64,000 nucleotides of DNA from Acuticoccus yangtzensis. Its GTDB lineage: Bacteria > Pseudomonadota > Alphaproteobacteria > Rhizobiales > Amorphaceae. Within the stretch, counting starts at the first letter, position 1. Every line of letters starts with the position of its first letter. This document shows positions 49,138 through 63,774 of the stretch, in pieces. The translations under genes were made by a program, and so were the position numbers. The notes beneath the pieces are model-generated. The model did no database searches. It saw only the letters and a program-made list of their open reading frames with translations, and was not told the origin of the DNA. The stretch is from assembly GCF_001927245.1 (NCBI RefSeq), contig NZ_MJUX01000001.1, positions 930,001 to 994,000 on the forward strand, read 5' to 3'.

Positions 49138-50493
49138 TCAGTCGATCTGCGACAGCGCCGCGCCGAGTCTCCGGTCCGCCTCCGCCCGGCCGAGGAGGCG
49201 CAGGATCGGCGCCAGCTCCGGCCCGCTCGCCTCCCCCGTCAACGCCAGACGCAGCGGCATGAAGAGCGCCTTGCCCTTCGCCCCTGTCGCCGTCTTCACC
49301 GCGCCGGTCCACGCCTTGAAGGTGGCCTCGTCCCACGGCTCGGGCGGGAGAGCATCGCGCGCGGCCTGAAGCACCGGCCGGTCGGACGGGCCGACCGGCA
49401 CCACCGCCGGGCCATCGCGCAGGATCGCCACCCAGGGCAGAATGTCGGTGCGCACGGAGAGATTGCCGCGCAGCGCCTCCCACACCGCGGGATCCGTCAC
49501 GCCGCAAGTCTCCGCCAGCCAGTCGGCCACCGCGGCGAAGGGCATCTCGTGCAGCAGCGCCGCGTTCAGCCGCTCCACGTCGGCCGGGTCGAAGGTGGCG
49601 GGGCTCCGGGAGATCGCCGAAAGGTCGGCGCGGGCGGCGAGCGCGCCGAGGTCCGCCACCGGCTCCACCGGGTTCGACGTTCCGGTCAAAACCGCCAGCG
49701 AGGCGACCGCCATCGGCTCGATGGAGGCCGCGCGCAGACGGGTCAGCGACAGCGGATTGTCGCGCTTGGAGAGCGGCTCCCCATCGGCGCGGGTGAGAAG
49801 ATTGTGGTGGCCGAAGGCGGGCGCCGCACCGCCCAGCGCCTCGAACAGGGCAAGCTGCACGCCGGTGTTGGTGATGTGATCCTCGCCGCGCACGACGAGG
49901 GTCACGCCCATGTCGAGATCGTCCACCACCGAGGTGAAGGTGTAGAGGTAGCTGCCGTCCGCGCGCACCAGAACGGGGTCGGACACGGCGTCGAGGTTCA
50001 CCCGCTGCTCGCCCCGGCAGCGGTCGTCCCAGGTGCGCTGCCCGTCCGGCAGGCGGAAGCGCCAGTGCGGGCGGCGCCCCTCCGCCTCGAAAGCGGCGCG
50101 TTCGGCGTCGGTCAGCGCCAGGCCGGCGCGGTCGTAGACCGGCGGACGGCCACGCGCCCGCTGCAGGGCGCGTTTGCGCTCCAGCTCGTCCGGCGTCTCG
50201 TAGCAGGCGTAGAGGAGGCCCGCCGCCTTCAGCCGCGCCGCCGCCGCGTCGTAAAGCGGGATGCGGTCCGACTGCCGCTCGACCCGCGCCGGAACGATGC
50301 CCAGCCATGCGAGGTCCGCCGCGATCGCCTCCGCATAACGCTGCTCGGAGCGTTCGGTGTCGGTGTCGTCGTAGCGAAGGATGAAGCTGCCGCCGGTGGT
50401 GAGGGCGACGGCGTAGTTGTAGAGCGCGGTGCGCGCGTTGCCGATGTGGATCTCGCCGGTTGGGGACGGGGCGAAGCGGACGATCTCGGGCAT
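49138..50493 (-). CDS. gltX: Glutamyl-tRNA synthetase
   Basis: A 451-residue class I aminoacyl-tRNA synthetase. It has the HIGH-type motif [11 protein letters not shown] (residues 10-20), the KMSKS-type motif EPLSKRD, and the core [19 protein letters not shown]-like RYDDTDTER. The anticodon-binding helical domain follows from about residue 320. ATG 50493. Alphaproteobacteria often have two GltX copies, one of which also charges tRNA-Gln; which this is cannot be told. Confidence 0.95.
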
Positions 50494-50666
50494 CAGGGTC
50501 CTGGCTTGGTCGCACGGGTGGCGTGGCGGGCGGCCCCTGCGCTGTCGGCGGGGCCTCAGCGTCCTAACCGTCCGCGCCGCGATCGTCCACGCCCCTCGCC
50601 CACGGGCCCCTCGCCCACACCCCGCGCGGCCGCGGACGGGCTCGCCGGAGCTCCCGGCGCGCCCGT

Positions 50667-51278
50667 CTACTGCGGCAGCTCCCGCGCGATGGTGCGGCCG
50701 AGGGCGAAGAGGCGCTGCTCGACGAAGCGCGGCACCTCGCACACGTAGGGCAGAGAGGCGCGCCGCTCGTTGAAGATGCGCGTCTGCCATTCCAATGCGG
50801 TCTGCGCCTCGGCGATCGCCTCGGCATCCGCCGCCCCGTCGCGCCGCAGGGCGCCGAAGTCCGCCGCCATCTGCCGCACCTGCGCGGCCACCTGGCGCTG
50901 GCGCCGGGCGTAGCGCTCTATGCCGTCGATGATCTGGCTGCGCTCGGCATTCATCGTCTGGAACAGGCCCGCGAAGAGGAGCGTGAGGCGCTCGCCCTCG
51001 TCGGCGCCGAGACCGGCGGCGAAGGTCTCGATCTCCGCCGCCGCCTCCTCCACCGGCAGGCGGCGCTGGGACAGGCGGCTCACCATCGCGGCCACCTCGT
51101 CGTCGGCGCGCCAGTCGGCGGTTTCGTCGAACACCGGGCCCGTCCACACCGCGGCGGGCGTCAGCGATGGCACCTTGCGCTGAACGCAGGGCCAGTCCCC
51201 GTCACCCTCGGCGGCGAGGACCGGGGAGACGGCCAGGACGGCACAGAGCGCGCCCGCGGCGAGCCGGACCCCGCGCAT
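50667..51278 (-). CDS. Exported helical protein in the PQQ/ABC cluster
   Basis: A 203-residue protein with signal peptide (cut near VLAAEG). The mature part is mostly helical, with a charged stretch [20 protein letters not shown] that could be coiled coil, and two Cys, one near each end (WPCVQRK; YVCEVPR), which may pair. Last gene of the minus-strand operon, 4 nt after the previous stop. Similar exported proteins of unknown role occur in PQQ-alcohol dehydrogenase and lanthanide-uptake gene sets; that link rests on context. Confidence 0.8.
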
Positions 51279-51282
51279 CGGC

Positions 51283-51708
51283 TCAGTCCGTCACGTTGAA
51301 GATGGCCTGCTGGCTCTCCCCGGTGGTGCCGGGAATGCGCAGCACGAAGCGGCCGGGGCGGATGGGGATGAAGTCCATCTCGATCTCGCCCTCGTCGTCG
51401 AATTCGAAGGAGGAGACGCCGAGCGGGCGGATCTCGATATCGTTGATGACGATCTCGTTGATCCACACGTTGCGGAAGAATTCCGGGCCCTCCAGCGCCA
51501 TCTCGCCCGAGCCGTCGGACTGGATGACGAGTTCGTAGAATTTGCCCGCCTTCAGCTCGTAGGGCGCCTCGGCCAGCGGCTGGCCGACGGAGAGTTTCAG
51601 CGGCGGCAGGTCCTCCGCCCCGCCGGTGAGGAGACCGGCCTGGCCGAAGGCGGGGCCGGCGACGAAGGCGCCGAGGGCGAGGGCGGCGGCAGTGATGCGC
51701 AAGGTCAT
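51283..51708 (-). CDS. Exported beta-rich (cupredoxin-like) protein in the PQQ/ABC cluster
   Basis: A 141-residue periplasmic protein with signal peptide (MTLRITAAALALGAFVAGPA). The rest looks all-beta, about the size of a cupredoxin, with the acidic stretch SFEFDDEGEIEMDF and the ending FVLRIPGTTGESQQAIFNVT. No Cys-His copper site is visible, so copper binding is unlikely; the acidic cluster could bind a hard cation. It sits between the beta-propeller and the helical exported gene, 4 nt before the latter. Confidence 0.8.
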   Translation of the reverse strand: MTLRITAAALALGAFVAGPAFGQAGLLTGGAEDLPPLKLSVGQPLAEAPYELKAGKFYELVIQSDGSGEMALEGPEFFRNVWINEIVINDIEIRPLGVSSFEFDDEGEIEMDFIPIRPGRFVLRIPGTTGESQQAIFNVTD

Positions 51709-51729
51709 GACGTCTCTTTCTTGTTATGG

Positions 51730-52701
51730 TTAGTCGGCGAGCGTGACGACGCCCCAGGGGAATTCACCCACGGGGATGGTGTTGACGACCTCGCGCGCGG
51801 CGACGTCGATGACGGAGACGTCGTTGGAGACGCCGTTGGTTGCGAAGATCATGTCCTCGTCAGGCGAGAAGCCGAGCTGCCAGACGCGCTGGCCGACGAG
51901 GAGATAGTCGGTCACCTCGTAGGTGGCAGCGTCCACCACGGCGACGCGGTTGGCGGGGCCGAGCGCCACGAAGGCGGTGCTGCCGTCCTTGGTGATGCGC
52001 ACGCCGACGGGCTGGATCGCTTCGGGCCTGAGGCCGGGCACCTCGAAGGTGATCTTGTGCGTCACCTCGTGCTTGATCGGGTCGATGATACTCACCGAGC
52101 CGCCGATTTCGGACGAGACCCAGACCTCGGAGCCGTCCGCCTTGAATTCGGCGAAGCGCGGGCGCTGGTCCACAAGGACGTTGCCGACGATCTCGTGGCT
52201 CTCCGTATCGATGAAGTGGGCCATGTTCGTCGTCTCCGAGGTGTTGACGATGAACTTGCCGTCCGGCGAGACGCCCATCCCCTCCGGCTCCACGCCGACC
52301 GGGATTTCGCTCACCATGGAGCGGCTCTTGAGATCGACGACGGTGACGAGATTGTCGTCCTCGTTGGCGATGTAGAGGTGGTTGCCGTCAGGGTGGAGGA
52401 CGAAGAGCTCGGGATCGGGCCCCGAGGGGAGCGTATAGAGGCGCTCGTGGGTCTTGGTGTCGTAGACCTCGACGGTGTCGTCGTCACCGACGGCGACGAG
52501 GAGGTGGGTGCCCTCCTCCGCCACGGTGATGCCGCGCGGGCGCTGGCCGACGTCGATGGTGTCGGTCACCTCCATGGTCTCAGAATCGATCACCGAGACG
52601 GAGTTGCCCTTCTCGTTGGAGACGAAGATCGTATAGGCCATGGCCTGTCCGGCCGAGGCGGTGAGCGCCAGAAGACTGGCGGCACACAGGATCGCGCGCA
52701 T
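51730..52701 (-). CDS. YVTN beta-propeller protein, PQQ-dependent catabolism-associated
   Basis: A 323-residue exported protein (signal MRAILCAASLLALTASAGQA) built of seven YVTN-type repeats, such as IFVSNEKGNSVSVIDSETM, LYIANEDDNLVTVVDL and IFATNGVSNDVSVIDVAA. The length and context fit the family named PQQ-dependent catabolism-associated beta-propeller (TIGR03866 type), related to PedA2 of the Pseudomonas ped cluster. It is a probable periplasmic scaffold or ligand-binding accessory for the ABC transporter. Confidence 0.9.
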   Translation of the reverse strand: MRAILCAASLLALTASAGQAMAYTIFVSNEKGNSVSVIDSETMEVTDTIDVGQRPRGITVAEEGTHLLVAVGDDDTVEVYDTKTHERLYTLPSGPDPELFVLHPDGNHLYIANEDDNLVTVVDLKSRSMVSEIPVGVEPEGMGVSPDGKFIVNTSETTNMAHFIDTESHEIVGNVLVDQRPRFAEFKADGSEVWVSSEIGGSVSIIDPIKHEVTHKITFEVPGLRPEAIQPVGVRITKDGSTAFVALGPANRVAVVDAATYEVTDYLLVGQRVWQLGFSPDEDMIFATNGVSNDVSVIDVAAREVVNTIPVGEFPWGVVTLAD

Positions 52702-52846
52702 GGTGCTCCTCCCAGGTGAGCGGCGTGGCCCTGGGCGTCGTGACGCGCCCTTGAAGGCCGTGGGTCGAAGGCGCCCCGGTCGGGTGCGCCGGTGGGCCGG
52801 CGGGGTCTACCCGCGCCGACGGTTTGGCGTGGCGACGGGCCGGCCG

Positions 52847-54082
52847 TCAGAAATCGCAGGCGCTCTCGGCACGGTCATAACCCAGCGTGTCGAGGAACGA
52901 GGACGGGTGAAGGAAGCCTTCCTGCGGCGACACGGAGACGACGCTCTTGCCGTCGGCGAGCAGGATGGGCTGGCGCAACTGGCGGTTCCAGGAGCGCAAA
53001 GTCAGCGCCTCGCCCTTGAAGGCGGCGAGGGAGAAGTCGGGGCCGAGAAGATAGTCGTCGATCGTTTCCGGGTCGCCCGACGCGGCGCGGGTGGCGGCCT
53101 CGCCCACGCTGCGCACCGCCATCCAGGCGAGCATGTCCTCCTCCTCCATGCGCCGCCCCACCTTGTCCAGGAAGCGGTTCTGGAGCTGGATGCCGCCCCA
53201 CTGCTCGTGCACCGGGCTCCAGGCGGTCGGCATCAGGCCGGCGCTTCCCGCAACGGGCCGCGGGGTCCAGGTGTGATAGGGCACATGGGTGCCGAAAACC
53301 TCGTTCTCGTCGGCCACCACGACGATGTCGTGCTCGGGCGCGTCCTGCAGGAAGACCGGCAGGCGGCGTTGCACCTGCACGTGGCCGGAATCGGTGGTGC
53401 GCGCGCCGCCGGTGTCCTCGAAGGTGCGGTCCTCGACGATGCGGGCGCCGAAGCGGGCTGCGGCGCGGCGGATGGCGTCCGCGAAGGCGATGTCCTCCGG
53501 GTGGGAGCCGGCGACGAGGAACCAGCGGGTCCACTTCTTCCAGGCGAGATATTGCGCCAGAGCGTCGGCCAGCATCGCTCGGCTGGGGACGATGTGGACG
53601 ACGTTGGCAAGGCACGTCTCGGTGCGCAGCGCGTCGTCCCTGGCGCCGACGTTGAAGACCAGCATGCCCTTGGCGTCGGCCGCGGCGGCGAGGGTGACCA
53701 GCGCCTCGCCCGGCATGTCGGCGATGACCCAATGGGCGCCGGCGGCGGCGAGGCGGTCGACCGCGGCGGCGGCCTCTTCGGGTGTGGCGGCGGTCTCGGT
53801 CAGGAGTTCGTAGGACTGGCCGGTGAAGCGGCCGGTGGTGTTGTTGTCGTCGATCGCGAGGGCGGCGCCCGCTGCGCCGAGGTCGGCGGCGGGGCGGTCC
53901 ATGAGGGACAGGGTCAACTCGCGCCGTTCGGGTATCAGGTAGCCGATGGCGATCGTCACCGGCTCGGCAGCGTTCGCGGCCGTGCTGACGGCGGCCGATA
54001 TAACGGCGCCGAGCGCATACGGCGCGACCAGAGCGCACGCCAAGGCGAGCGCGGCAAAGCGGCTCCTCACGGTCCCACCCAT
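52847..54082 (-). CDS. ABC substrate-binding protein, PQQ-dependent alcohol dehydrogenase system type
   Basis: A 411-residue periplasmic protein of the type-1 binding fold. After the signal peptide (RSRFAALALACALVAPYALG) comes IAIGYLIPERRELTLSLMDRP, and AALAIDDNNTTGRFTGQSYE is the hallmark of the PQQ-linked family (TIGR03863 type, PedA1/LutA-like). ATG 54082 is chosen over 54136 because it gives a proper signal peptide. First gene of the minus-strand operon, 145 nt before the beta-propeller gene and divergent from the small protein/ATPase/permease set. Confidence 0.9.
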   Translation of the reverse strand: MGGTVRSRFAALALACALVAPYALGAVISAAVSTAANAAEPVTIAIGYLIPERRELTLSLMDRPAADLGAAGAALAIDDNNTTGRFTGQSYELLTETAATPEEAAAAVDRLAAAGAHWVIADMPGEALVTLAAAADAKGMLVFNVGARDDALRTETCLANVVHIVPSRAMLADALAQYLAWKKWTRWFLVAGSHPEDIAFADAIRRAAARFGARIVEDRTFEDTGGARTTDSGHVQVQRRLPVFLQDAPEHDIVVVADENEVFGTHVPYHTWTPRPVAGSAGLMPTAWSPVHEQWGGIQLQNRFLDKVGRRMEEEDMLAWMAVRSVGEAATRAASGDPETIDDYLLGPDFSLAAFKGEALTLRSWNRQLRQPILLADGKSVVSVSPQEGFLHPSSFLDTLGYDRAESACDF

Positions 54083-54669
54083 AGGTTTCTTATCGTTATA
54101 CAGGCCGCGGTCTACGGCACGACCAGCCCAACGCAAACTAGACTGTGTGTCAACACTTAAAGAATCGAGACCATTGTCTAGATGCCTCGATCATTATTCA
54201 GTCTATTCCTGAAGGGGTTAGAGCGAGGCGCGACGGGAAGAGCGGGCACCGGGTGCGGGCAATTGCCTCACGAGGGCGGCCGCGCCCTGCCCATGTCGCG
54301 CAGGAGTTGCAACATCGGGAGGGCGTGGTCTCTCCCCTCGCCCGTTGGGCGGTCATGATGAAAGGAGCGGCAGACGGACGGATCGGGACAGGGCGTTTCT
54401 GTGGGAACATCTGCACGCCGCGCCGAATTGCTGGTGCAAGGAGGACGGTGAGATAACAGTCATACAGGTTCGGGCAAGGTTAGGCCCGAACACTGGTGAA
54501 GGCTGGGCAAAGGCTCATAAGCCGCTGAAAAGTGGCAGGGTGTCGCAGGCTGCATGGCAGACCTGCAACCGTTCGTAGCATTAAATGGTCGTCAGACCAT
54601 GCGGCGGGCACTTCCTTTGCAGCTGGAGGGCGTCAACCACGACTTTAGTTCAGTGCAGAGGAACCGAAG
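54083..54669. promoter_or_regulatory. 587-bp divergent control region of the ABC cluster
   Basis: Separates the two divergent halves of the PQQ/ABC cluster. No convincing gene; visibly less GC-rich than neighbouring coding DNA. It holds an 8-bp inverted repeat, GTTCGGGC (54468-54475) with GCCCGAAC (54484-54491), a possible operator. Short frames here lack ribosome sites and family features. Promoters presumably face both ways but were not pinned down. Confidence 0.55.
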
Positions 54670-54882
54670 ATGCCAATCATCCAACTCGTTGTTGCTGTCT
54701 GTCTCAATTCGAACCCGGCGATTTGCAGTGAGGAGCGTTTCTCGTTCATGGAACAGGTGACGACGACGACGTGCACCATGCGTGCGATGCCGTATCTGGC
54801 CAAATGGGCGGGCGACCACCCGCAATATAAAATCAAGAGCTGGAAGTGCAGCTATCCGAACGTGAACGAACAAGACGCCTGA
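54670..54882 (+). CDS. Small conserved-type protein with Cys residues
   Basis: A 70-residue protein preceded by AGAGGAA. It opens MPIIQLVVAVCLNSNPAICS and ends with AMPYLAKWAGDHPQYKIKSW then KCSYP; four Cys (in VCL, ICS, TCT, KCS) may form two disulfides. Small rhizobial proteins with the same layout (a C..C start, then PYLAQW..HP and a WKC ending) are familiar but uncharacterised. The 3' end overlaps the ATPase gene by 37 nt. Confidence 0.75.
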   Translation: MPIIQLVVAVCLNSNPAICSEERFSFMEQVTTTTCTMRAMPYLAKWAGDHPQYKIKSWKCSYPNVNEQDA

Positions 54883-55658
54883 TCCAAGGCGCGAGACCGG
54901 CGCTCGAGGTCCAGAACCTCAACCATTCCTATGGGCGCAAGGCCGCGTTGTCGGACGTCTCCTTCACCATCGAGCCGGGGCGGTTCACTGCCCTGCTCGG
55001 TCCCAACGGGGCCGGAAAGACCACCCTGTTCGGGCTGCTCACCCGCCTGTTGGCGCTGCAGACGGGGCGCATTCGCATCGAGGGCGTGGAGATCACCGCA
55101 GGGGCCGCCGCGCTGGCACCGCTCGGCCTCGTCTTCCAGCAGCCGACGCTCGATCTGGACCTCTCGGTTCGCCAGAACCTGACCTATTTCGCGGCCTTGC
55201 GCGGCCTGTCGCGGGCCGAGGCGAAGGCGCGCATCGCCGACGAGCTGACCCGGCTCGACATGGCCGAGCGGGCGCGCGAGCCGGTGCGGGCGCTGAACGG
55301 CGGCCACCGCAGGCGGGTGGAGCTGGCGCGCGCCCTCCTCCACCAGCCCTCGATCCTCCTGCTGGACGAGCCCACCGTCGGCCTCGACGTCGAGGCGCGC
55401 GGGCGCATCTGCCGCCACGTTCACGCTCTGGCGCGCGAGCGGGGCATCGCCGTCCTGTGGTCCACCCACCTCATCGACGAGGTGTGGCCGGACGACGATC
55501 TCGTGGTGCTGGGCGCCGGCGCGGTGCTGGCGAAGGGCCGCGCCGGGGACATCGTCGCCGAGACGGGGGCGGACGACCTCGCCGGTGCCTTCACCCGGCT
55601 GACGGGGGTCGAGACGGCGGGGGCGCCCACCCTCAACGCGCGCGAGGGGATGGCATGA
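54846..55658 (+). CDS. ABC transporter ATP-binding protein, PQQ-associated (PedB/LutE-like)
   Basis: A 270-residue ATPase. Walker A is GPNGAGKTT (52-60), Q-loop VFQQPTLDLDLSVRQN, the signature is the variant LNGGHRRRVELARALLH instead of LSGGQ, and Walker B is LLLDEPTVGLD. The LNGGH form is typical of this PQQ-alcohol-associated family (TIGR03864 type). It starts with GTG inside the end of the small upstream gene. The stop overlaps the permease ATG (ATGA). Confidence 0.92.
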   Translation: MQLSERERTRRLIQGARPALEVQNLNHSYGRKAALSDVSFTIEPGRFTALLGPNGAGKTTLFGLLTRLLALQTGRIRIEGVEITAGAAALAPLGLVFQQPTLDLDLSVRQNLTYFAALRGLSRAEAKARIADELTRLDMAERAREPVRALNGGHRRRVELARALLHQPSILLLDEPTVGLDVEARGRICRHVHALARERGIAVLWSTHLIDEVWPDDDLVVLGAGAVLAKGRAGDIVAETGADDLAGAFTRLTGVETAGAPTLNAREGMA

Positions 55659-56455
55659 GCGCTTACGTGCGTGCCGGGCTCGGCATCGTCCACCGCGAGC
55701 TGCTGCGCTTCGTGCAGCAGCGCGGCCGCTTCATCGCCGCCTTGGTGCGGCCTTTGGTGTGGCTCATCGTCTTCGCGGCGGGCTTCCGCGCGGTGCTCGG
55801 CGTCGCCATCCAGCCGCCGTACCAGACCTATATCACCTACGACGTCTACATCGTGCCGGGGCTGATCGGCATGATCCAGCTCTTCAACGGGATGCAGTCC
55901 TCTCTCTCGATGGTCTACGATCGCGAGATGGGGTCCATGCGCGTCCTGATGACGACGCCGCTGCCGCGCGCTTTCCTGCTGTCGGCCAAGCTGATGGCGG
56001 GGGTGATCGTCTCCATCGTCCAGGTCTACGCCTTCCTCGCCATCGCGGCGCTGTTCGGCATCACCTTCCGCTGGGAGGGCTATGTCGCGGTGTTCCCGGC
56101 GCTCGTCCTCAGTGGCATGATGCTGGGCGCCGTCGGCATGTTCTTGTCCTCCACGGTGCGGCAGTTGGAGAATTTTGCGGGGGTGATGAACTTCGTCATC
56201 TTCCCGTCCTTCTTCCTGTCCTCCGCGCTCTACCCGTTGTGGAGGATGCGCGAGTCCAGCGTCATTTTGTGGCAGATCTCGTCGGCCAACCCGTTCACCC
56301 ATGCGGTCGAGCTGGTCCGTTTCGCGCTCTACGGACAGGCCGATTGGATGGCCGCGGGGATCGTCGCGGCGGTGCTCGCGGTGTTCCTGGCGCTGGGGCT
56401 TTGGGGCTACGACCCGTCCAAGAGCTTGCGTCTGCGCGGACGTGGGGCAGACTGA
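55655..56455 (+). CDS. ABC-2 type permease, PedC family
   Basis: A 266-residue inner-membrane permease of the ABC-2 family with about six hydrophobic segments. PLVWLIVFAAGFRAVLG, the VYDREMGSMRVLMTTPLPR cytoplasmic loop, and FPSFFLSSALYPLWRM are as in the alcohol-system permease PedC (TIGR03861 type). It pairs with the ATPase gene by a 4-nt overlap. Confidence 0.92.
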   Translation: MSAYVRAGLGIVHRELLRFVQQRGRFIAALVRPLVWLIVFAAGFRAVLGVAIQPPYQTYITYDVYIVPGLIGMIQLFNGMQSSLSMVYDREMGSMRVLMTTPLPRAFLLSAKLMAGVIVSIVQVYAFLAIAALFGITFRWEGYVAVFPALVLSGMMLGAVGMFLSSTVRQLENFAGVMNFVIFPSFFLSSALYPLWRMRESSVILWQISSANPFTHAVELVRFALYGQADWMAAGIVAAVLAVFLALGLWGYDPSKSLRLRGRGAD

Positions 56456-56606: not shown

Positions 56607-57620
56607 ATGAACGGGTTCAGCCGATCCATGATCGCGCTCGCCGCTGCCGTCGCGGCGGCCTTCAGTCTGTCCGCGGCCGGGGTCACGGCCGCCGCGGCGC
56701 AGAACCTGCCCGCCGTGCGCCTCGCCCTCCTGCAGTTCGGTACGGTGAACTGGGAGGCGAGCACCATCAAGGCGGAAGGCTTCGACACGGCCAACGGATT
56801 CACGCTGGAGATCGTGCCCTTCGCCAGCGGCAACGCCACACAGGTCGCGCTGTTGTCGGGTGACGTCGACATTTCCACCGGCGACTGGCTCTACGCCTCG
56901 CGCCAGCGGGCGATGGGCGAGCCGCTCGCCTTCGTGCCCTATTCCACCTCCATGGGCGGGCTGATGGCGCGGTGCGACGCCGGCTATTCGTCCATCGCCG
57001 ACCTCAAGGGCAAGACGATCGGCGTCGCGGGCGGTCCGCTCGACAAGAGCTGGCTGATGCTGCAGGGCCTCGCCGAAGGAGAGCACGGCTTCGACCTCAA
57101 GGCCGAGACGCGCCAGGTGTTCGGCGCGCCGCCGCTTCTGGCCGAGAAGCTGCGCCAGGGCGAGCTCGATGCGGCGCTGAACTACTGGCACTATAACGCG
57201 CGGCTGGAGACGGAGGATTATTGCGAGGTCGTCTCCGCGCAGGACGCGGCCGAGGCATTGGGGGCGACAGGCAAGCTGTCGGCCATCGGCTACCTCTTCA
57301 ACGAGACGTGGGCCGATGAGAACCCGGACCTCGCGGCGGGTTTCGTCGCCGCCTCCGCCGCCGCCAAGGCGCACCTCGCCACCGACGACGCCGCATGGGA
57401 CGCCCTGCGCGAGGACATGAAGGCGGAGAACGACGCCGTGTTCGCCGCGCTGAAGACCCATTGGCGCGAGGGAATCCCGGCCGCGGACGTCGCCCAGGAG
57501 GAGGCCGACACCGCTGCCGTCTACCTCTATCTCGCGAAGGCCGGGGGCGAGGATCTGGTCGGACCGGCCAAGGAGATGGCGCCCGGCACCTTCTGGCACG
57601 GCCTGAAGGCCGGGAACTAG
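56607..57620 (+). CDS. ABC substrate-binding protein, NMT1/SsuA-like
   Basis: A 337-residue type-2 periplasmic binding protein with signal peptide (cut near AAAAQN, residue 31). VRLALLQFGTVNWEASTIKA, ALLSGDVDISTGDW, LKGKTIGVAGGPLDKSW and GELDAALNYWHYNARLE follow the NMT1/SsuA pattern used for sulfonates, thiamine precursors and similar organics. GGGGAGAG precedes the ATG. The substrate cannot be read from the sequence. The stop is followed directly by the permease GTG. Confidence 0.9.
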   Translation: MNGFSRSMIALAAAVAAAFSLSAAGVTAAAAQNLPAVRLALLQFGTVNWEASTIKAEGFDTANGFTLEIVPFASGNATQVALLSGDVDISTGDWLYASRQRAMGEPLAFVPYSTSMGGLMARCDAGYSSIADLKGKTIGVAGGPLDKSWLMLQGLAEGEHGFDLKAETRQVFGAPPLLAEKLRQGELDAALNYWHYNARLETEDYCEVVSAQDAAEALGATGKLSAIGYLFNETWADENPDLAAGFVAASAAAKAHLATDDAAWDALREDMKAENDAVFAALKTHWREGIPAADVAQEEADTAAVYLYLAKAGGEDLVGPAKEMAPGTFWHGLKAGN

Positions 57621-58424
57621 GTGGCGGACACCTCTTCCCTCGCGCCGCCGCGCACGGCACCGCGCCGGATCGTCCCGGCGCGCACCCTCGCCGGGGCGCT
57701 GTCCGTCGCCGCCTTCTTCGCGGTGTGGATGCTCGGCACCTGGTGGATGGGGCCGCGCCTGTGCCCCAGCCCCGCCGCGGTCTTCGCGTTCATCGTGCGC
57801 GAGACGGCGTCCGGCGAACTTCCCGCCGAGCTCGGCATCACCCTGGCGCGGGTGGCGGCCGCCTTCGTCATCGCCATGACCATCGGCACGGCGGCGGGGC
57901 TCCTGATGGGCCGCTCGCGCCTTGCCAACACCATCGGCGAGCCGTGGCTGATCCTGCTCCTCAACGCGCCCGCCCTCATCGTCATCGTGCTCGCCTATAT
58001 CTGGATCGGGCTGACGGAGACGGCGGCGATCATGGCGGTGGCGATCAACAAGATCCCCAACGTGACCGTGACGATCCGCGAGGGGGCGCGGGCGATGGAC
58101 CCGCAGCTCACCGAGATGGCGCGCATCTACCGCTTCTCACGCCGGCAGATGCTGACCGAGGTGATGCTGCCGCAGTTGCAGCCCTATATCGCCGCCGCCG
58201 CGCGGTCCGGCATCGCGCTGATCTGGAAGATCGTTCTGGTGGTGGAGCTGCTCGGCCGGTCCAACGGCGTCGGCTTCCAGATCCACCTTTATTTCCAGCT
58301 TTTCGACGTGCGTGCGATCCTCGGCTACACGCTCGCCTTCGTGGCGGTGATGCTGGTGGTGGAGTTCGCCGTGCTGCAGCCGTGGGAGCGGCGGGCGAGC
58401 CGCTGGCGCGGAGGGGCGCGGTGA
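57621..58424 (+). CDS. ABC transporter permease (BPD type, SsuC-like)
   Basis: A 267-residue inner-membrane permease with about six hydrophobic segments. The EAA-type loop is REGARAMDPQLTEMARIYRF; LTEVMLPQLQPYIAAAARS follows. It begins with GTG immediately after the binding-protein stop codon. Partner of the flanking binding protein and ATPase. Confidence 0.92.
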   Translation: MADTSSLAPPRTAPRRIVPARTLAGALSVAAFFAVWMLGTWWMGPRLCPSPAAVFAFIVRETASGELPAELGITLARVAAAFVIAMTIGTAAGLLMGRSRLANTIGEPWLILLLNAPALIVIVLAYIWIGLTETAAIMAVAINKIPNVTVTIREGARAMDPQLTEMARIYRFSRRQMLTEVMLPQLQPYIAAAARSGIALIWKIVLVVELLGRSNGVGFQIHLYFQLFDVRAILGYTLAFVAVMLVVEFAVLQPWERRASRWRGGAR

Positions 58425-59161
58425 TGCTGGAGCGGGACGGCTACCGCGTCGACATCCGCACCAAGGCCCACCGCGGGGCGGACGGATCGCCGGTCCCGGT
58501 GATCGAAGGGCTCGCCTTCACGCTGCCGGAACGCGCCTTCACGTCGGTGATCGGCCCGTCCGGCTGCGGCAAGACCACCACCTTGCGCATCCTCACCGGC
58601 CTCGACACCGCCTATGACGGCGCCATCGACGCGCGCTTCGGCGACGCGCGGATCGCCGTCGCCTTCCAGGAGCCGCGCCTCTTGCCGTGGCGCACGGTGG
58701 CGCAGAATGTCGCGTTGGCGCTGCCGCCGGGGGCGGAGCGCGCGGCGCGGGTGGCCGAGGCTCTGGCGGACGTCGGCCTCGATGGGCTCGGCGAACGCTA
58801 TCCGTCGCAGTTGTCGCTGGGCCAGGCGCGGCGGGCCGCACTTGCGCGGGCCTTCGCGGTCAGGCCCGACATTTTGTTTCTGGACGAACCCTTCGTGTCG
58901 CTGGACGAATCCAGCGCGCAGCACCTTCGCCAGTTGTTGCTGAACCTCTGGGCGCGGTATCGTGTGACCATTCTCATGGTCACCCACAACGTGCGTGAGG
59001 CGGTCCAGCTTTCGGACCACATCATCCTCCTGAGCCAGCGGCCTGCAAGAGTGGTCGACGTGGTGGAAGTTACGCTCGCACGAAATGAGCGAGATGCTGA
59101 ATCTACAACCCGATTCTCCCAGGAACTGGCCGCGCTTTATCCGACCATAGTCGCGCTCTAA
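58424..59161 (+). CDS. ABC transporter ATP-binding protein (SsuB-like)
   Basis: A 245-residue ATPase. Walker A is GPSGCGKTTT, Q-loop VAFQEPRLLPWRTVAQNV, signature LSLGQARRAALARAF (LSLGQ for LSGGQ), Walker B LFLDEPFVSLDE, and switch His in VTHNVREAVQ. ATG 58424 overlaps the permease stop by one base; GTG 58421 is also possible. The end of the three-gene transporter operon; formate dehydrogenase genes follow after 96 nt. Confidence 0.93.
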   Translation: MLERDGYRVDIRTKAHRGADGSPVPVIEGLAFTLPERAFTSVIGPSGCGKTTTLRILTGLDTAYDGAIDARFGDARIAVAFQEPRLLPWRTVAQNVALALPPGAERAARVAEALADVGLDGLGERYPSQLSLGQARRAALARAFAVRPDILFLDEPFVSLDESSAQHLRQLLLNLWARYRVTILMVTHNVREAVQLSDHIILLSQRPARVVDVVEVTLARNERDAESTTRFSQELAALYPTIVAL

Positions 59162-59257: not shown

Positions 59258-60973
59258 GTGGCGGACATGGATCTTCGTTCATCTGACCGACCGTCGGCGC
59301 GTGGCCCGCGTTCGGCGCCTCAGTCGCGTAATCCTGGCGCCCCCAAGGGCCGGCAGGTCGAGGAATCGACCGTCGACGACGTGCGCGCCATCCTGCGACC
59401 CATGCCCATCCGGCGCGACATGCTGATCGAAGCGCTGCACGTGGTGCAGGACCGCATCGGCTATATCCACGCCCGCCACATCGCCGCGCTCGCCGAGATC
59501 TTCCGCCTCGCCCAGGCCGAGGTTCACGCCGTGGCGAGCTTTTACCACCACTTCGACATCGTGAAGGAGGGGCAGATGCCGCCGGCCCCGCTCACGGTGC
59601 GCATCTGCGAGAGCCTGTCCTGCCACATGGCCGGGGCGGACGCGCTGGCCGCGGCGATGGAGGCGGCGACCGACCCCGGCAAGGTGCGCATCGTGAAGGT
59701 GCCGTGCATCGGCCGGTGCGATGCCGCCCCCGCCGCCCAGGTCGCCCGCCGCGCGATCGACAACGCCACCGTGGAAAGCTTGACCGAGGCGCTCGGCGGC
59801 CCCCGCACGCCGGACATCGCCGCCTACGAGACGCTGGACGCCTACCGCGCCGAGGGTGGTTACGGCACGCTCGCCAAGATCCTGTCGGGCGAGATCAGCG
59901 CCGACGACGCCATTCGAATCATGTCCGACGCGAAGCTACGCGGGCTCGGCGGTGCGGGCTTTCCGGCGGGCCGCAAATGGGGCTTCGTGCGCTCCTATCC
60001 CGGCCCCCGCCTGATGACCATCAACGGCGACGAGGGCGAGCCCGGCACCTTTAAAGACCGCCATTGGCTGGAGCGGCGCCCGCATCTGATGCTGGAAGGC
60101 GCGCTGATCGCCGCCAAGATCGTCGAGGCGGAGCGCATCTATCTCTACATGCGCGACGAATATCAGGGCGTGCTCGAGATCCTGAGGCGCGAGATCGCGG
60201 CGCTGGACCGCGCCGGCCTCACCCACGTGCCGATCGAGCTTCGCCGCGGCGCGGGCGCCTACATCTGCGGCGAAGAGTCGGCGATGATCGAGTCCATCGA
60301 GGGTAAGCGCGGCCTGCCCCGCCACCGCCCGCCCTACATCGCCGAGGTGGGCCTCTTCGGCCGCCCGACGCTGAACCACAACATCGAAACGCTGCTGTGG
60401 GTGCCGACCATCCTTCAGGACGGCGCCGAAGCCTTCGCCAAGATGGGCTGGGACGAGAAGCACGCCGGCATGCGCTCCTTCTCCGTCTCCGGCCGCGTGA
60501 AGGAGCCGGGGGTGAAGCTCGCCCCCGCGGGGATCCCGCTGATCCGCCTGATCGAGGATTATTGCGGCGGCATGGCCGAGGGGCACACCTTCAAGGCCTT
60601 CCTTCCGGGCGGCGCCTCGGGCGGCATCTTTCCCGCGTCCATGGCCGATCTCGCCATGGATTTCGGCACCTTCGAGCCCCACTCGGGCTTCATCGGCAGC
60701 CACGCCGTCGTCATTCTGTCGGACGCGGACTCCATCCACGACGCCGCGCTCAACACGATGCGCTTCTTCCGCCACGAGAGCTGCGGCCAGTGCACCCCCT
60801 GCCGCTCCGGCACCGACAAGATGGTGCGGCTGATGGAGCACGGCGACCTCGACCACGACCTTGCCGCCGACCTGATGACGGTGATGCGCGACAGCTCCAT
60901 ATGCGGTCTCGGCCAAGCGGCGTCCAACTGCGTCGCCCATCTCCTGCAGCACTTCCCGGAGGACGTGAAATGA
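59258..60973 (+). CDS. fdh1B: NAD-dependent formate dehydrogenase beta subunit (NuoE-NuoF fusion)
   Basis: A 571-residue diaphorase subunit carrying electrons from formate to NAD+. The NuoE-like part has a [2Fe-2S] set C117, C122, C150, C154. The NuoF-like part has the FMN/NADH region GLGGAGFPAGRKWGF and INGDEGEPGTFKDR, and the [4Fe-4S] set C509, C512, C515 (ESCGQCTPCRSGT) and C549. The fused form and length match FDH1 beta of Methylorubrum extorquens rather than the separate FdsG/FdsB. It probably starts at GTG 59258; ATG 59267 is an alternative. The stop overlaps the alpha-subunit start (ATGA). Confidence 0.94.
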   Translation: MADMDLRSSDRPSARGPRSAPQSRNPGAPKGRQVEESTVDDVRAILRPMPIRRDMLIEALHVVQDRIGYIHARHIAALAEIFRLAQAEVHAVASFYHHFDIVKEGQMPPAPLTVRICESLSCHMAGADALAAAMEAATDPGKVRIVKVPCIGRCDAAPAAQVARRAIDNATVESLTEALGGPRTPDIAAYETLDAYRAEGGYGTLAKILSGEISADDAIRIMSDAKLRGLGGAGFPAGRKWGFVRSYPGPRLMTINGDEGEPGTFKDRHWLERRPHLMLEGALIAAKIVEAERIYLYMRDEYQGVLEILRREIAALDRAGLTHVPIELRRGAGAYICGEESAMIESIEGKRGLPRHRPPYIAEVGLFGRPTLNHNIETLLWVPTILQDGAEAFAKMGWDEKHAGMRSFSVSGRVKEPGVKLAPAGIPLIRLIEDYCGGMAEGHTFKAFLPGGASGGIFPASMADLAMDFGTFEPHSGFIGSHAVVILSDADSIHDAALNTMRFFRHESCGQCTPCRSGTDKMVRLMEHGDLDHDLAADLMTVMRDSSICGLGQAASNCVAHLLQHFPEDVK

Positions 60974-63774
60974 ACGCGCCGACACCGGATCTTCGCACCG
61001 TCTCGTTCACTCTTGACGGGGAGAGCGTCGACGCGCTGCCGGGCGAATCCATCTGGGACGTCGCGCTGCGGCTCGGCAAGCGCATCCCCCACCTGTGCCA
61101 CCGTCCGGAGCCGGGCTATACGCCTGACGGCAACTGCCGCGCCTGCATGGTGGAGGTGGAGGGCGAGCGCACCCTCACCGCGTCGTGCGTGCGGCGCCCG
61201 TCCGAGGGGATGAAGGTCGCCACCACGGGGCCGCGCGTGGAGAAGAACCGCGCCCTGGTGTTCGAGCTCCTCGCCTCCGACATGCCCGCCCGCGAGGAGA
61301 GCCCCGACCCCGACGCCGCTTTCTGGCAGATGGCCGCGCTCACCGAGGTCGGCGACCAGAGGCGCTTTCCCTCCGCCCGCCCCGGCGCCGGACAGGCGAT
61401 CCCGGTGGAGAGCATCTTCCGCGACAATTCCCACCCGTCGATCGCGGTCAATCTCGACGCGTGCATCGCCTGCAATCTGTGCGAACGGGCGTGCGTGGAC
61501 GTCCAGTCCAACGACGTCATCGGCATGATGGCGCGCGGCATGGAGGCGCTTCCGGCGTTCGATTCGGCCGATCCCATGGGCCTCTCCACCTGCGTCGCGT
61601 GCGGCGAGTGCGTGCAGGCCTGCCCCACCGGCGCGCTGCGCGAACGCACGACGCTGGACGAGACCGCGACCCGCCGCGCCGTCGTCGCAGACCGCACCGT
61701 GGACAGCGTCTGCCCCTTCTGCGGCGTCGGCTGCCAGACGAAGATTTCGGTGAAGGACGACCGCATCATCAAGGTGGACGGGCGCGACGGACCCGCCAAC
61801 CACAACCGCCTCTGCGTCAAAGGGCGCTTCGGGTTCGACTATGTGCTGTCGCCCGAGCGGTTGACGAAGCCCCTCATCCGCCGGGACGACGCGCCCAAGT
61901 CCGCCGACGCGACGATGACTTTCGCCGACATCCCCTCGGTCTTCCGCGAGGCGACGTGGGAGGAGGCGCTGGAGCGCGCCGCATCCGGCTTCCGCGCGAT
62001 CATGGACACGCGCGGCGGCGCATCCCTGTGCGGTTTCGGCTCGGCCAAGGGCACCAACGAGGAGGCCTACCTCTTCCAGAAGCTCATCCGCCAGGGCTTC
62101 GGCACCAACAACGTCGACCACTGCACGCGCCTGTGCCACGCCTCGTCCGTCGCGGCGTTGATGGAAGGCGTCGGCTCCGGCGCGGTCTCGGCCCCCTTCA
62201 CCGCGGTGGAGGACGCGGACTGCATCATCGTCATCGGCGCGCGGCCGAACCAGAACCACCCCGTCGCCGCCTCCTTCTTCAAGGCCGCCGCCAAGCGGGG
62301 CGCAAAGCTCATCGTCATGGACCCGCGCCATCAGAACCTGATGCGCTATGCGTCCCACCCGGTGATCTTCAAGCCGGGGCGCGACGTGGCGCTGCTGAAC
62401 GCGATGCTGAACGTCATCGTCACCGAAGACCTCGTCGACCGGCAATATATTCAGGCCAACGTGGACGGTTACGAGGCGCTGGCCGAGAAGGTGCGCGAAT
62501 TCACCCCCGAGGCGATGGCCGAGATCTGCGGCGTCCCGGCCGAGACGATCCGCGACGTCGCCCGTACCTATGCGACGGCCGAGCGATCGATCATCTTCTG
62601 GGGCATGGGGATCAGCCAGCACGTCCATGGGACGGACAATTCGCGCGGTCTCATCGCGCTCGCCCTCATCACCGGCCATGTCGGCCGGCCGGGGACGGGG
62701 CTGCACCCCCTGCGCGGCCAGAACAACGTGCAGGGCGCGTCGGACGCCGGGCTCATCCCGATGCTCTATCCGGACTACAAGTCCGCCGAGGATCCCGACG
62801 TGCGCGCCCACTATGAGGACGCCTGGGGCCGCCCGCTGGACCCGGTGCGCGGCCTCACCGTGGTCGAGATCATGGACGCCATCGGCAACGGCGACATCAC
62901 CGGCATGTACGTGATGGGCGAGAATCCGGCCATGTCGGACCCCGACCAGCACCACGCCAGAGCCGCCCTCGCCGCTCTCGATCACCTCGTCGTGCAGGAC
63001 ATCTTCCTCACCGAGACGGCGTGGTTCGCGGACGTGATCTTCCCCGCCTCCGCCCAGGCCGAGAAGGTGGGCACCACCACCAACACCAACCGCCAGGTGC
63101 AGATGAACCGCGCCGCGATCGCGCCCCCCGGCGAGGCGCGGCAGGATTGGGAGCTCATCGTGTCGCTCGCCAACGGCGTCGGGCTCGACTGGCGCTATGG
63201 CGGGGTCGACGAGGTCTATGCCGAGATGGCGAGCCACATGCCCTCGCTGGACAACATCACCTGGGAGCGGATCGAGCGGGAGGACGCGGTCACCTACCCG
63301 TCCGCCGGGCCGGACGAACCGGGCGCCGACATCATCTTCCGCGAGGCCTTCCCCACCGCGACGGGCCGCGCCAAGGTGGTGCCGACCGAGCTCGTGCCGC
63401 CGGACGAGATGCCCGACGAGGAGTTCCCGTTGGTGCTGACCACGGGCCGTCTTCTGGAGCACTGGCACACCGGGGCGATGACCCGCCGCTCCGCCGCGCT
63501 GGAGGCGCAAGAGCCCGAGGCGATCGTGGCGATGCACCCGCGCGACATCGGCGAGAAGGGCCTGAAGGCGGGGCAGACGGTGCGGGTGGAGACGCGGCGC
63601 GGCGCCGTCAGCCTCACCCTGCGCGCCGACCGCGACGTGACGAAGGGGATGATCTTCATCCCCTTCTGCTTCACCGAGGCCCCTGCCAATTTCCTGACGA
63701 ACCCGAAGCTCGACCCGATCGGCAAGATCCCCGAGTTCAAGTTCTGCGCCGCCCGCGTCACCGCCACGCAGTAG
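60970..63774 (+). CDS. fdh1A: NAD-dependent formate dehydrogenase alpha subunit (Mo/W)
   Basis: A 934-residue catalytic subunit oxidising formate to CO2. The N-terminal [2Fe-2S] ferredoxin has C43, C56, C59, C73. Two [4Fe-4S] clusters are at C165/168/171/175 and C208/211/214/218. The molybdopterin-oxidoreductase cluster is C248/251/255/282. Cys389 in RLCHASSVAA is the metal ligand, in Cys rather than selenocysteine form. Guanine-dinucleotide-binding segments (GRPGTGLHPLRGQNNVQGAS) and a C-terminal dinucleotide-binding domain with TGRLLEHWHTGAMTRRS complete the enzyme. Length and gene order (beta then alpha) fit the tungsten-type FDH1; Mo or W cannot be told apart. Confidence 0.96.
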   Translation: MNAPTPDLRTVSFTLDGESVDALPGESIWDVALRLGKRIPHLCHRPEPGYTPDGNCRACMVEVEGERTLTASCVRRPSEGMKVATTGPRVEKNRALVFELLASDMPAREESPDPDAAFWQMAALTEVGDQRRFPSARPGAGQAIPVESIFRDNSHPSIAVNLDACIACNLCERACVDVQSNDVIGMMARGMEALPAFDSADPMGLSTCVACGECVQACPTGALRERTTLDETATRRAVVADRTVDSVCPFCGVGCQTKISVKDDRIIKVDGRDGPANHNRLCVKGRFGFDYVLSPERLTKPLIRRDDAPKSADATMTFADIPSVFREATWEEALERAASGFRAIMDTRGGASLCGFGSAKGTNEEAYLFQKLIRQGFGTNNVDHCTRLCHASSVAALMEGVGSGAVSAPFTAVEDADCIIVIGARPNQNHPVAASFFKAAAKRGAKLIVMDPRHQNLMRYASHPVIFKPGRDVALLNAMLNVIVTEDLVDRQYIQANVDGYEALAEKVREFTPEAMAEICGVPAETIRDVARTYATAERSIIFWGMGISQHVHGTDNSRGLIALALITGHVGRPGTGLHPLRGQNNVQGASDAGLIPMLYPDYKSAEDPDVRAHYEDAWGRPLDPVRGLTVVEIMDAIGNGDITGMYVMGENPAMSDPDQHHARAALAALDHLVVQDIFLTETAWFADVIFPASAQAEKVGTTTNTNRQVQMNRAAIAPPGEARQDWELIVSLANGVGLDWRYGGVDEVYAEMASHMPSLDNITWERIEREDAVTYPSAGPDEPGADIIFREAFPTATGRAKVVPTELVPPDEMPDEEFPLVLTTGRLLEHWHTGAMTRRSAALEAQEPEAIVAMHPRDIGEKGLKAGQTVRVETRRGAVSLTLRADRDVTKGMIFIPFCFTEAPANFLTNPKLDPIGKIPEFKFCAARVTATQ

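Follow-up and report, generated by a model that had tools for sequence, protein, structure and literature searches.

The lut cluster of Methylobacterium extorquens AM1 (META1p1778-1787) consists of lutA to lutH, lanM and lutI, and its gene names and functions are used here as given in PMC7391723 (this and the other papers are cited for their accessible excerpts). Mutants in lutE and lutF fail on methanol with lanthanum (La), and mutants in lutA, lutB and lutG grow poorly (PMC7391723). A second described system is PedA1A2BC of Pseudomonas putida KT2440. A third is the M. extorquens protein PqqT, the name under which PDB 9B1V is reported with pyrroloquinoline quinone (PQQ) and gadolinium, with a Kd of 50 nM for PQQ (PMC12828617). 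Here we describe a locus of Acuticoccus yangtzensis in which a lut/PedA1A2BC-type lanthanide-uptake locus is most likely fused with a PQQ-uptake locus. The locus lies in a stretch of 64,000 nucleotides, hereinafter designated the window (bases 930001-994000 of contig C12, in a genome of 5.04 Mb). The proposed function draws on family membership, gene order and conserved linkage, with the direction of transport and the cargo transferred from mutants of other species.

The window shares LutA, LutB, LutC, LutE, LutF and LutG with the M. extorquens AM1 cluster, its homologues being 40-61% identical to those of an M. extorquens-like Methylobacterium genome (G260). However, the AM1 genes lie on one strand together with LutD, LutH and LanM, whereas the window has two divergent units without these three, and it carries a 70-amino-acid (70-aa) protein before lutE and a PqqT-type importer after lutF. 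With PedA1A2BC, the window has the binding protein, the YVTN propeller, the ATPase and the permease in common, while LutC, LutG and the PqqT-type transporter are extra in the window. No LutH homologue is reported for P. putida KT2440 in the accessible excerpts of PMC6839425, as in the window, and LutH is not required for PedA1A2BC. With M. extorquens PqqT, the window protein shares homology over the full mature length, the LDK-W motif, and the same permease and ATPase partners, but its identity is 43.5% and its gene lies beside lutEF instead of beside xoxF. Finally, the only window component missing from the lut region on pSymB of Sinorhizobium meliloti 1021 is the 70-aa protein beside lutE (lutG lies nearby). 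Unlike the window, the S. meliloti run is on one strand, with the importer genes between lutC and lutE.

Results

Core genes of the lanthanide-uptake locus

The locus is arranged as lutABCG, divergent from a unit of the 70-aa protein gene and lutEF. Seven open reading frames (ORFs) surround a single control region (54083-54669), four on the minus strand (LutG, LutC, LutB and LutA) and three on the plus strand (the 70-aa protein, LutE and LutF), just as the initial annotation of the window had laid them out. Family calls on the window proteins were made with the curated cut-offs of NCBIfam, with Pfam alongside. LutA/PedA1, the periplasmic binding protein (52847-54082, minus strand), scores 476.5 bits against TIGR03863 (cut-off 413.6), and LutB/PedA2, the YVTN beta-propeller (51730-52701, minus strand), scores 507 bits against TIGR03866 (cut-off 287). 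On the other strand, LutE/PedB, the ATP-binding cassette (ABC) ATPase (54846-55658, plus strand, GTG start), scores 340 bits against TIGR03864 (cut-off 302), and LutF/PedC, the ABC-2 type permease (55655-56455, plus strand), scores 393 bits against TIGR03861 (cut-off 241). The initial annotation had assigned the cluster to the families of PedA1A2BC and lut and had named these four profiles as the check; all four are over their curated cut-offs, which bears the assignment out. The motifs it had quoted for the binding protein and the ATPase, DNNTTGRF and LNGGH, are both in the sequence. Judged from its sequence, the cluster is a lanthanide-utilisation system of the lut/PedA1A2BC type.

For LutA, the ATG at 54082 is the probable start, the ORF being open from 54136. 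The permease ORF of 55457-56455 is over-extended; its likely start is the ATG at 55655, which overlaps with the stop of the ATPase gene.

The names of the remaining genes were obtained through G260, which was chosen among genomes with a PqqT 96-97% identical to the solved PqqT chain. The lut cluster of G260 runs in the order LutA, propeller, 141-aa homologue, 92-aa protein, ATPase, permease, 203-aa homologue, 847-aa TonB receptor, lanmodulin (NF053806 over cut-off) and 157-aa protein. This order equals the published order lutA-H, lanM, lutI and so identifies the propeller as LutB, the 141-aa protein as LutC and the 203-aa protein as LutG. Identities of the window proteins to the proteins at the corresponding positions of G260 are 42.5% for LutA, 60.5% for LutB, 51.3% for LutE, 60.7% for LutF, 40.3% over 124 aa for LutC and 39.6% over 207 aa for LutG.

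A PqqT-type importer follows lutEF

On the same strand, lutEF is followed by a second ABC transporter (56607-59161) and then by formate dehydrogenase genes (59258-63774). The second transporter looks like a PQQ importer. Specifically, its periplasmic binding protein (SBP2; 56607-57620, plus strand) matches the PqqT chains PDB 9b1u/9b1v by phmmer at E 6.7e-74 and is homologous to them along the whole mature protein, the identity of 43.5% being that to the PqqT of G260. Searched against solved structures, a profile of its relatives reaches PqqT at E 2e-103, and the next non-PqqT chain at 1e-5. All 16 aligned PqqT-type proteins keep the LDK-W motif (LDKSW in the window), and from the chain numbering its lysine probably corresponds to K142 of PqqT. 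The permease (57621-58424, plus strand; BPD_transp_1) and the ATPase (58424-59161, plus strand; ABC_tran) are 57.3% and 47.9% identical, respectively, to the permease and the ATPase beside pqqT in G260. In NCBIfam, the best matches of the three proteins are TauA/SsuA-like, TauC/SsuC-like and TauB-like, all below cut-off. The three importer genes and the seven lut-side genes are all open frames.

Linkage of lut and PqqT-type genes

Linkage was assessed in 98 lut loci, which were picked by LutA, so that LutA is present in 98 of 98 by construction. Eighty of the loci were taken from 581 relatives listed, Bradyrhizobium is over-represented, and many loci stop at contig ends; because of this choice, this excess and these breaks, per-locus counts other than that of LutA are lower bounds. 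A PqqT-type binding protein is found in at least 42 of the 98 loci (34 of 80 among the named loci). Its placement varies: it can be transcribed divergently from lutA, lie downstream of lutG or sit between lutC and lutE with all genes in one direction, the last in Agrobacterium (L126), Rhizobium daejeonense (L131) and Roseibium (L142). On pSK01 of Rhizobium leguminosarum, lutABC, lutEF, lutG, the PqqT-type ABC genes, xoxF, xoxG, frmA and gfa follow each other in one direction. On pSymB of S. meliloti 1021, lutA, lutB, lutC, pqqT, the permease, the ATPase, lutE and lutF form a single run, with xoxF upstream. Its sister strain S. meliloti 2011 is reported to grow on methanol if lanthanides are present (PMC12628762).

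Co-occurrence was assessed in a set of 61 genomes, with Fisher p-values that ignore shared ancestry. A PqqT-type protein occurs in 16 of the 61, and 13 of these 16 also have LutA (p 4e-8). The two genes lie at most 10 kb apart in eight of the 13 shared genomes (G000, G003, G005, G010, G032, G042, G043 and G046), and in G039 the PqqT-type gene adjoins lutEF.

PqqT-type genes were also considered as a substitute for LutH, and this was rejected. At least 26 of the 98 loci contain a LutH-like receptor, and because 19 of these 26 carry both, LutH and the PqqT-type gene are not alternatives.

Each of the three systems, lut, PedA1A2BC and PqqT, has been described before. PqqT genes within lut clusters were not reported in the literature searched, which excluded the paper that first described PqqT and most subscription journals, and the joined lut-PqqT arrangement is tentatively regarded as new.

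Dehydrogenases, PQQ genes and receptors elsewhere in the genome

Two PQQ alcohol dehydrogenases of the genome pass the TIGR03075 cut-off, while a third, membrane-type match is below it. XoxF, on contig C23, contains HDEWDFDG, and a PedH-like alcohol dehydrogenase, on contig C24, contains NDAWDWDE, aligned with both PedH aspartates. Both enzymes thus have D-x-D, the extra aspartate of which we take to be the lanthanide signature of PQQ dehydrogenases. The neighbourhood of xoxF encodes an XoxJ-type protein (TIGR03871), a CXXCW protein (TIGR03865), a SoxYZ-like protein (TIGR04557) and the S-(hydroxymethyl)glutathione dehydrogenase FrmA (TIGR02818), all over cut-off. PqqE is over cut-off as well, and gfa adjoins pqqE. 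Among the 61 genomes, LutA is over cut-off in 16, each of which also encodes a PQQ alcohol dehydrogenase above its cut-off. Because the lut family scores exceed their cut-offs and two PQQ alcohol dehydrogenases are present, the window proteins do not fall outside these families, nor does the genome lack a PQQ dehydrogenase.

A search of the genome for the TonB plug detected two receptors, one over the haem-receptor cut-off and the other haem-receptor-like below cut-off. Neither matches LutH. A phmmer search of 118 loci, which did not extend to the rest of the window's own genome, matched LutD in two loci and LanM in nine, the window being in neither group.

In two LutA-bearing genomes of the same genus (G003 and G005; loci L057 and L060), xoxF and lutG are 2.2 and 3.5 kb apart, while xoxF of the window's genome is on C23. 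The best NCBIfam match of G260 LutH (L171:5826-8369) is the PQQ receptor PqqU, with 74.8 bits, far under the cut-off of 1200.

The exported proteins LutC and LutG

LutC (51283-51708, minus strand; 141 aa) and LutG (50667-51278, minus strand; 203 aa) are both exported proteins. They have no NCBIfam match at E 0.01, and their Pfam matches are below cut-off. The first homologues of both came from lut loci in other families within the order of the window's genome. One genome of this order (G043) has lut genes with about 95% identity to those of Bradyrhizobium, which makes the order Hyphomicrobiales. LutG, LutC and the 70-aa protein are real genes, because homologues recur in at least 66, at least 38 and at least 20 of the 98 lut loci, respectively. 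In the 61-genome set, LutG and LutC occur in 13 genomes each, all within the 16 that have LutA (p 8.5e-11 each). The naming through G260 fits the homologues of lutA, lutB, lutE, lutF and lutG reported in Bradyrhizobium and Sinorhizobium (PMC12628762).

The predicted model of LutC has a cupredoxin fold (predicted local distance difference test score, pLDDT, 86.6), with matches to cupredoxin domains at Z up to 11.6 and a root-mean-square deviation of 2.4 over 106 residues. A sequence search against solved structures gave a best E of 0.21. The window LutC contains zero His and zero Cys as copper ligands. Across the 21 alignment rows, E69, E92 and E102 do not vary, and an acidic residue stands at position 104 in every one. 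LutC may bind lanthanide by acidic residues. In M. extorquens, LutD, not LutC, is the reported lanthanide binder, and loss of lutC leads to a small growth defect with La (PMC7391723). Separately, the linker after the signal peptide contains an acidic run (at least four Asp/Glu) in 20 of 37 LutC homologues, for example those of L082, L083, L104, L105 and L115. This run is a possible metal-collecting segment; the window LutC is without it.

The predicted model of LutG is a long helical hairpin (pLDDT 90.5), and Cys31 and Cys180 are invariant in 33 alignment rows. In the fold comparison, the best Z was 8.7, under the chance level for helical bundles. The sequence search against solved structures reached a designed helical protein at E 5e-5, which is uninformative.

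The 70-aa protein, the control region and flanking genes

The 70-aa protein (54670-54882, plus strand) has four Cys, and the end of its coding region overlaps the lutE start. It has no NCBIfam match at E 0.01 and no Pfam match, and a search with it against a defence-gene library gave nothing useful. It is not specific to lut, because homologues also occur elsewhere, for example on a second, non-lut replicon of S. meliloti. In Ensifer loci, relatives of the 70-aa protein precede the PqqT-type gene.

Upstream of the 70-aa gene, the control region contains one block at 54549-54600, TGCATGGCAGACCTGCAACCG, which is conserved in two genomes of the same genus and kept only within that genus. In 97 lut loci, three matches were found at up to three mismatches, versus one in single-base shuffles. 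The block was also considered as a regulatory motif shared by lut and xoxF, and this was rejected, as it is absent (up to four mismatches) from the xoxF, PedH-like and pqq loci of its own genome (L009, L010 and L050).

The formate dehydrogenase genes downstream of the importer encode a NuoE/NuoF-like fused gamma-beta subunit of an NAD-linked enzyme (59258-60973, plus strand; best NCBIfam matches the NuoF and NuoE families, below cut-offs) and an alpha subunit (60970-63774, plus strand; start approximate, ORF open from 60397), which scores 729.6 bits against TIGR01591 (cut-off 666). At the other end, an ORF downstream of lutG on the same strand (49138-51147) contains a stretch judged by eye to be glutamyl-tRNA-synthetase-like.

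Discussion

We propose that the two importers would act side by side. Periplasmic lanthanide would be bound by LutA, with LutB, LutC and LutG assisting its hand-over to LutEF, and LutE and LutF would pump it into the cytoplasm. The PqqT-type protein would capture free PQQ, which its permease and ATPase would import. XoxF and the PedH-like enzyme, periplasmic and encoded elsewhere, would use lanthanide plus PQQ. Formaldehyde would then enter the glutathione route, and formate would be passed to the formate dehydrogenase encoded next door.

The initial annotation had read the cluster as a candidate lanthanide-uptake system, perhaps a minimal form with two unfamiliar exported proteins. The core of that proposal stands, given the families and the dehydrogenases present. 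The genome search it had suggested for xoxF and PQQ genes yielded two PQQ alcohol dehydrogenases over cut-off, both with D-x-D, plus pqqE, and the one for a LutH-like receptor yielded no match in the two TonB receptors detected. It was also right that the cluster itself is without a LutH-type receptor and without lanmodulin, and the PQQ dehydrogenases sit on C23 and C24. The exported proteins, however, are not unfamiliar: gene position and sequence homology to G260 identify them as homologues of LutC and LutG, in the same order as in the Methylobacterium lut cluster. The description as minimal is not supported either, as it overlooks the PqqT-type transporter and the formate dehydrogenase genes after lutEF; the annotated extent ended too early.

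Several observations weigh against the proposed explanation. The cluster is without LutH, LutD and LanM, and neither of the two detected TonB receptors matches LutH; for P. putida and S. meliloti 2011, the outer-membrane route of lanthanides is likewise described as unknown in the accessible excerpts of PMC6839425 and PMC12628762. The LutF permease belongs to the ABC-2 family, and the named proteins nearest to it are exporters. The PqqT homologue has an identity of only 43.5%, and in G260 pqqT lies about 36 kb from lutA, beside xoxF. Moreover, the pairing is not obligatory, because three of 16 genomes with a PqqT-type protein are without LutA and three of 16 with LutA are without a PqqT-type protein.

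The exporter-like permease leads to one alternative, in which the cargo of LutA-F is organic (a product of alcohol oxidation or a quinone-related molecule), its transport is possibly outward, and the lanthanide connection of other species is an indirect one. DrrB and NodJ are among the ABC-2 families with which the permease scores, PedB is tabulated as an 'ABC efflux transporter' in PMC12997753, and the NCBIfam family names mention alcohol, not metal. However, M. extorquens mutants in lutA, lutE and lutF deposit La in the periplasm (PMC7391723), a P. putida pedE mutant that is also without PedA1A2BC needs about 100-fold more La (PMC6839425), and the binding protein is in every locus used, though by query choice. 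We consider an organic cargo improbable. The same holds for the idea that the second transporter imports a sulfonate such as taurine and adjoins lut by accident. Its best NCBIfam matches, to the TauA/SsuA-, TauC/SsuC- and TauB-like families, point that way at scores below cut-off, but the profile match to PqqT is far stronger than that to the next solved protein (E 2e-103 versus 1e-5), and the motif around the lysine taken as K142 is invariant (16 of 16). In addition, PqqT-type genes occur in at least 42 of 98 lut loci, beside xoxF in G260 and as part of the lut run in S. meliloti.

A cluster that is silent or in decay in this strain, as the relocation of xoxF to another contig and the absence of LutD, LutH and LanM might suggest, is very improbable. 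The same-genus genomes G003 and G005 do keep xoxF near lutG, at 2.2 and 3.5 kb, while the window's genome has it on C23, but all seven lut-side and three PqqT-side genes are open frames, and family searches show a complete xox locus elsewhere in the genome. A more specific version of joint uptake would make the lut and PqqT-type transporters one module that co-imports lanthanide and PQQ, PQQ perhaps being the lanthanide carrier, with LutC as a copper-free cupredoxin that binds lanthanide by E69, E92, E102 and D104; in this full form it is rather unlikely.

With lanthanide uptake joined to PQQ uptake as the preferred explanation, neighbouring genes may supply the bacterium with both halves of one enzyme cofactor. 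Names are now given to proteins that deposited records call only 'hypothetical protein' or 'ABC transporter substrate-binding protein'. The lut genes by themselves are of an ordinary kind; what can be tested is the module that links lanthanide import with PQQ import. Cytoplasmic import of lanthanide and PQQ, despite the periplasmic location of the enzymes, is an open question from the work on P. putida (PMC6839425). The joined importers form a unit in many alphaproteobacteria and a single run in the tractable S. meliloti, which would make the question of import directly testable.

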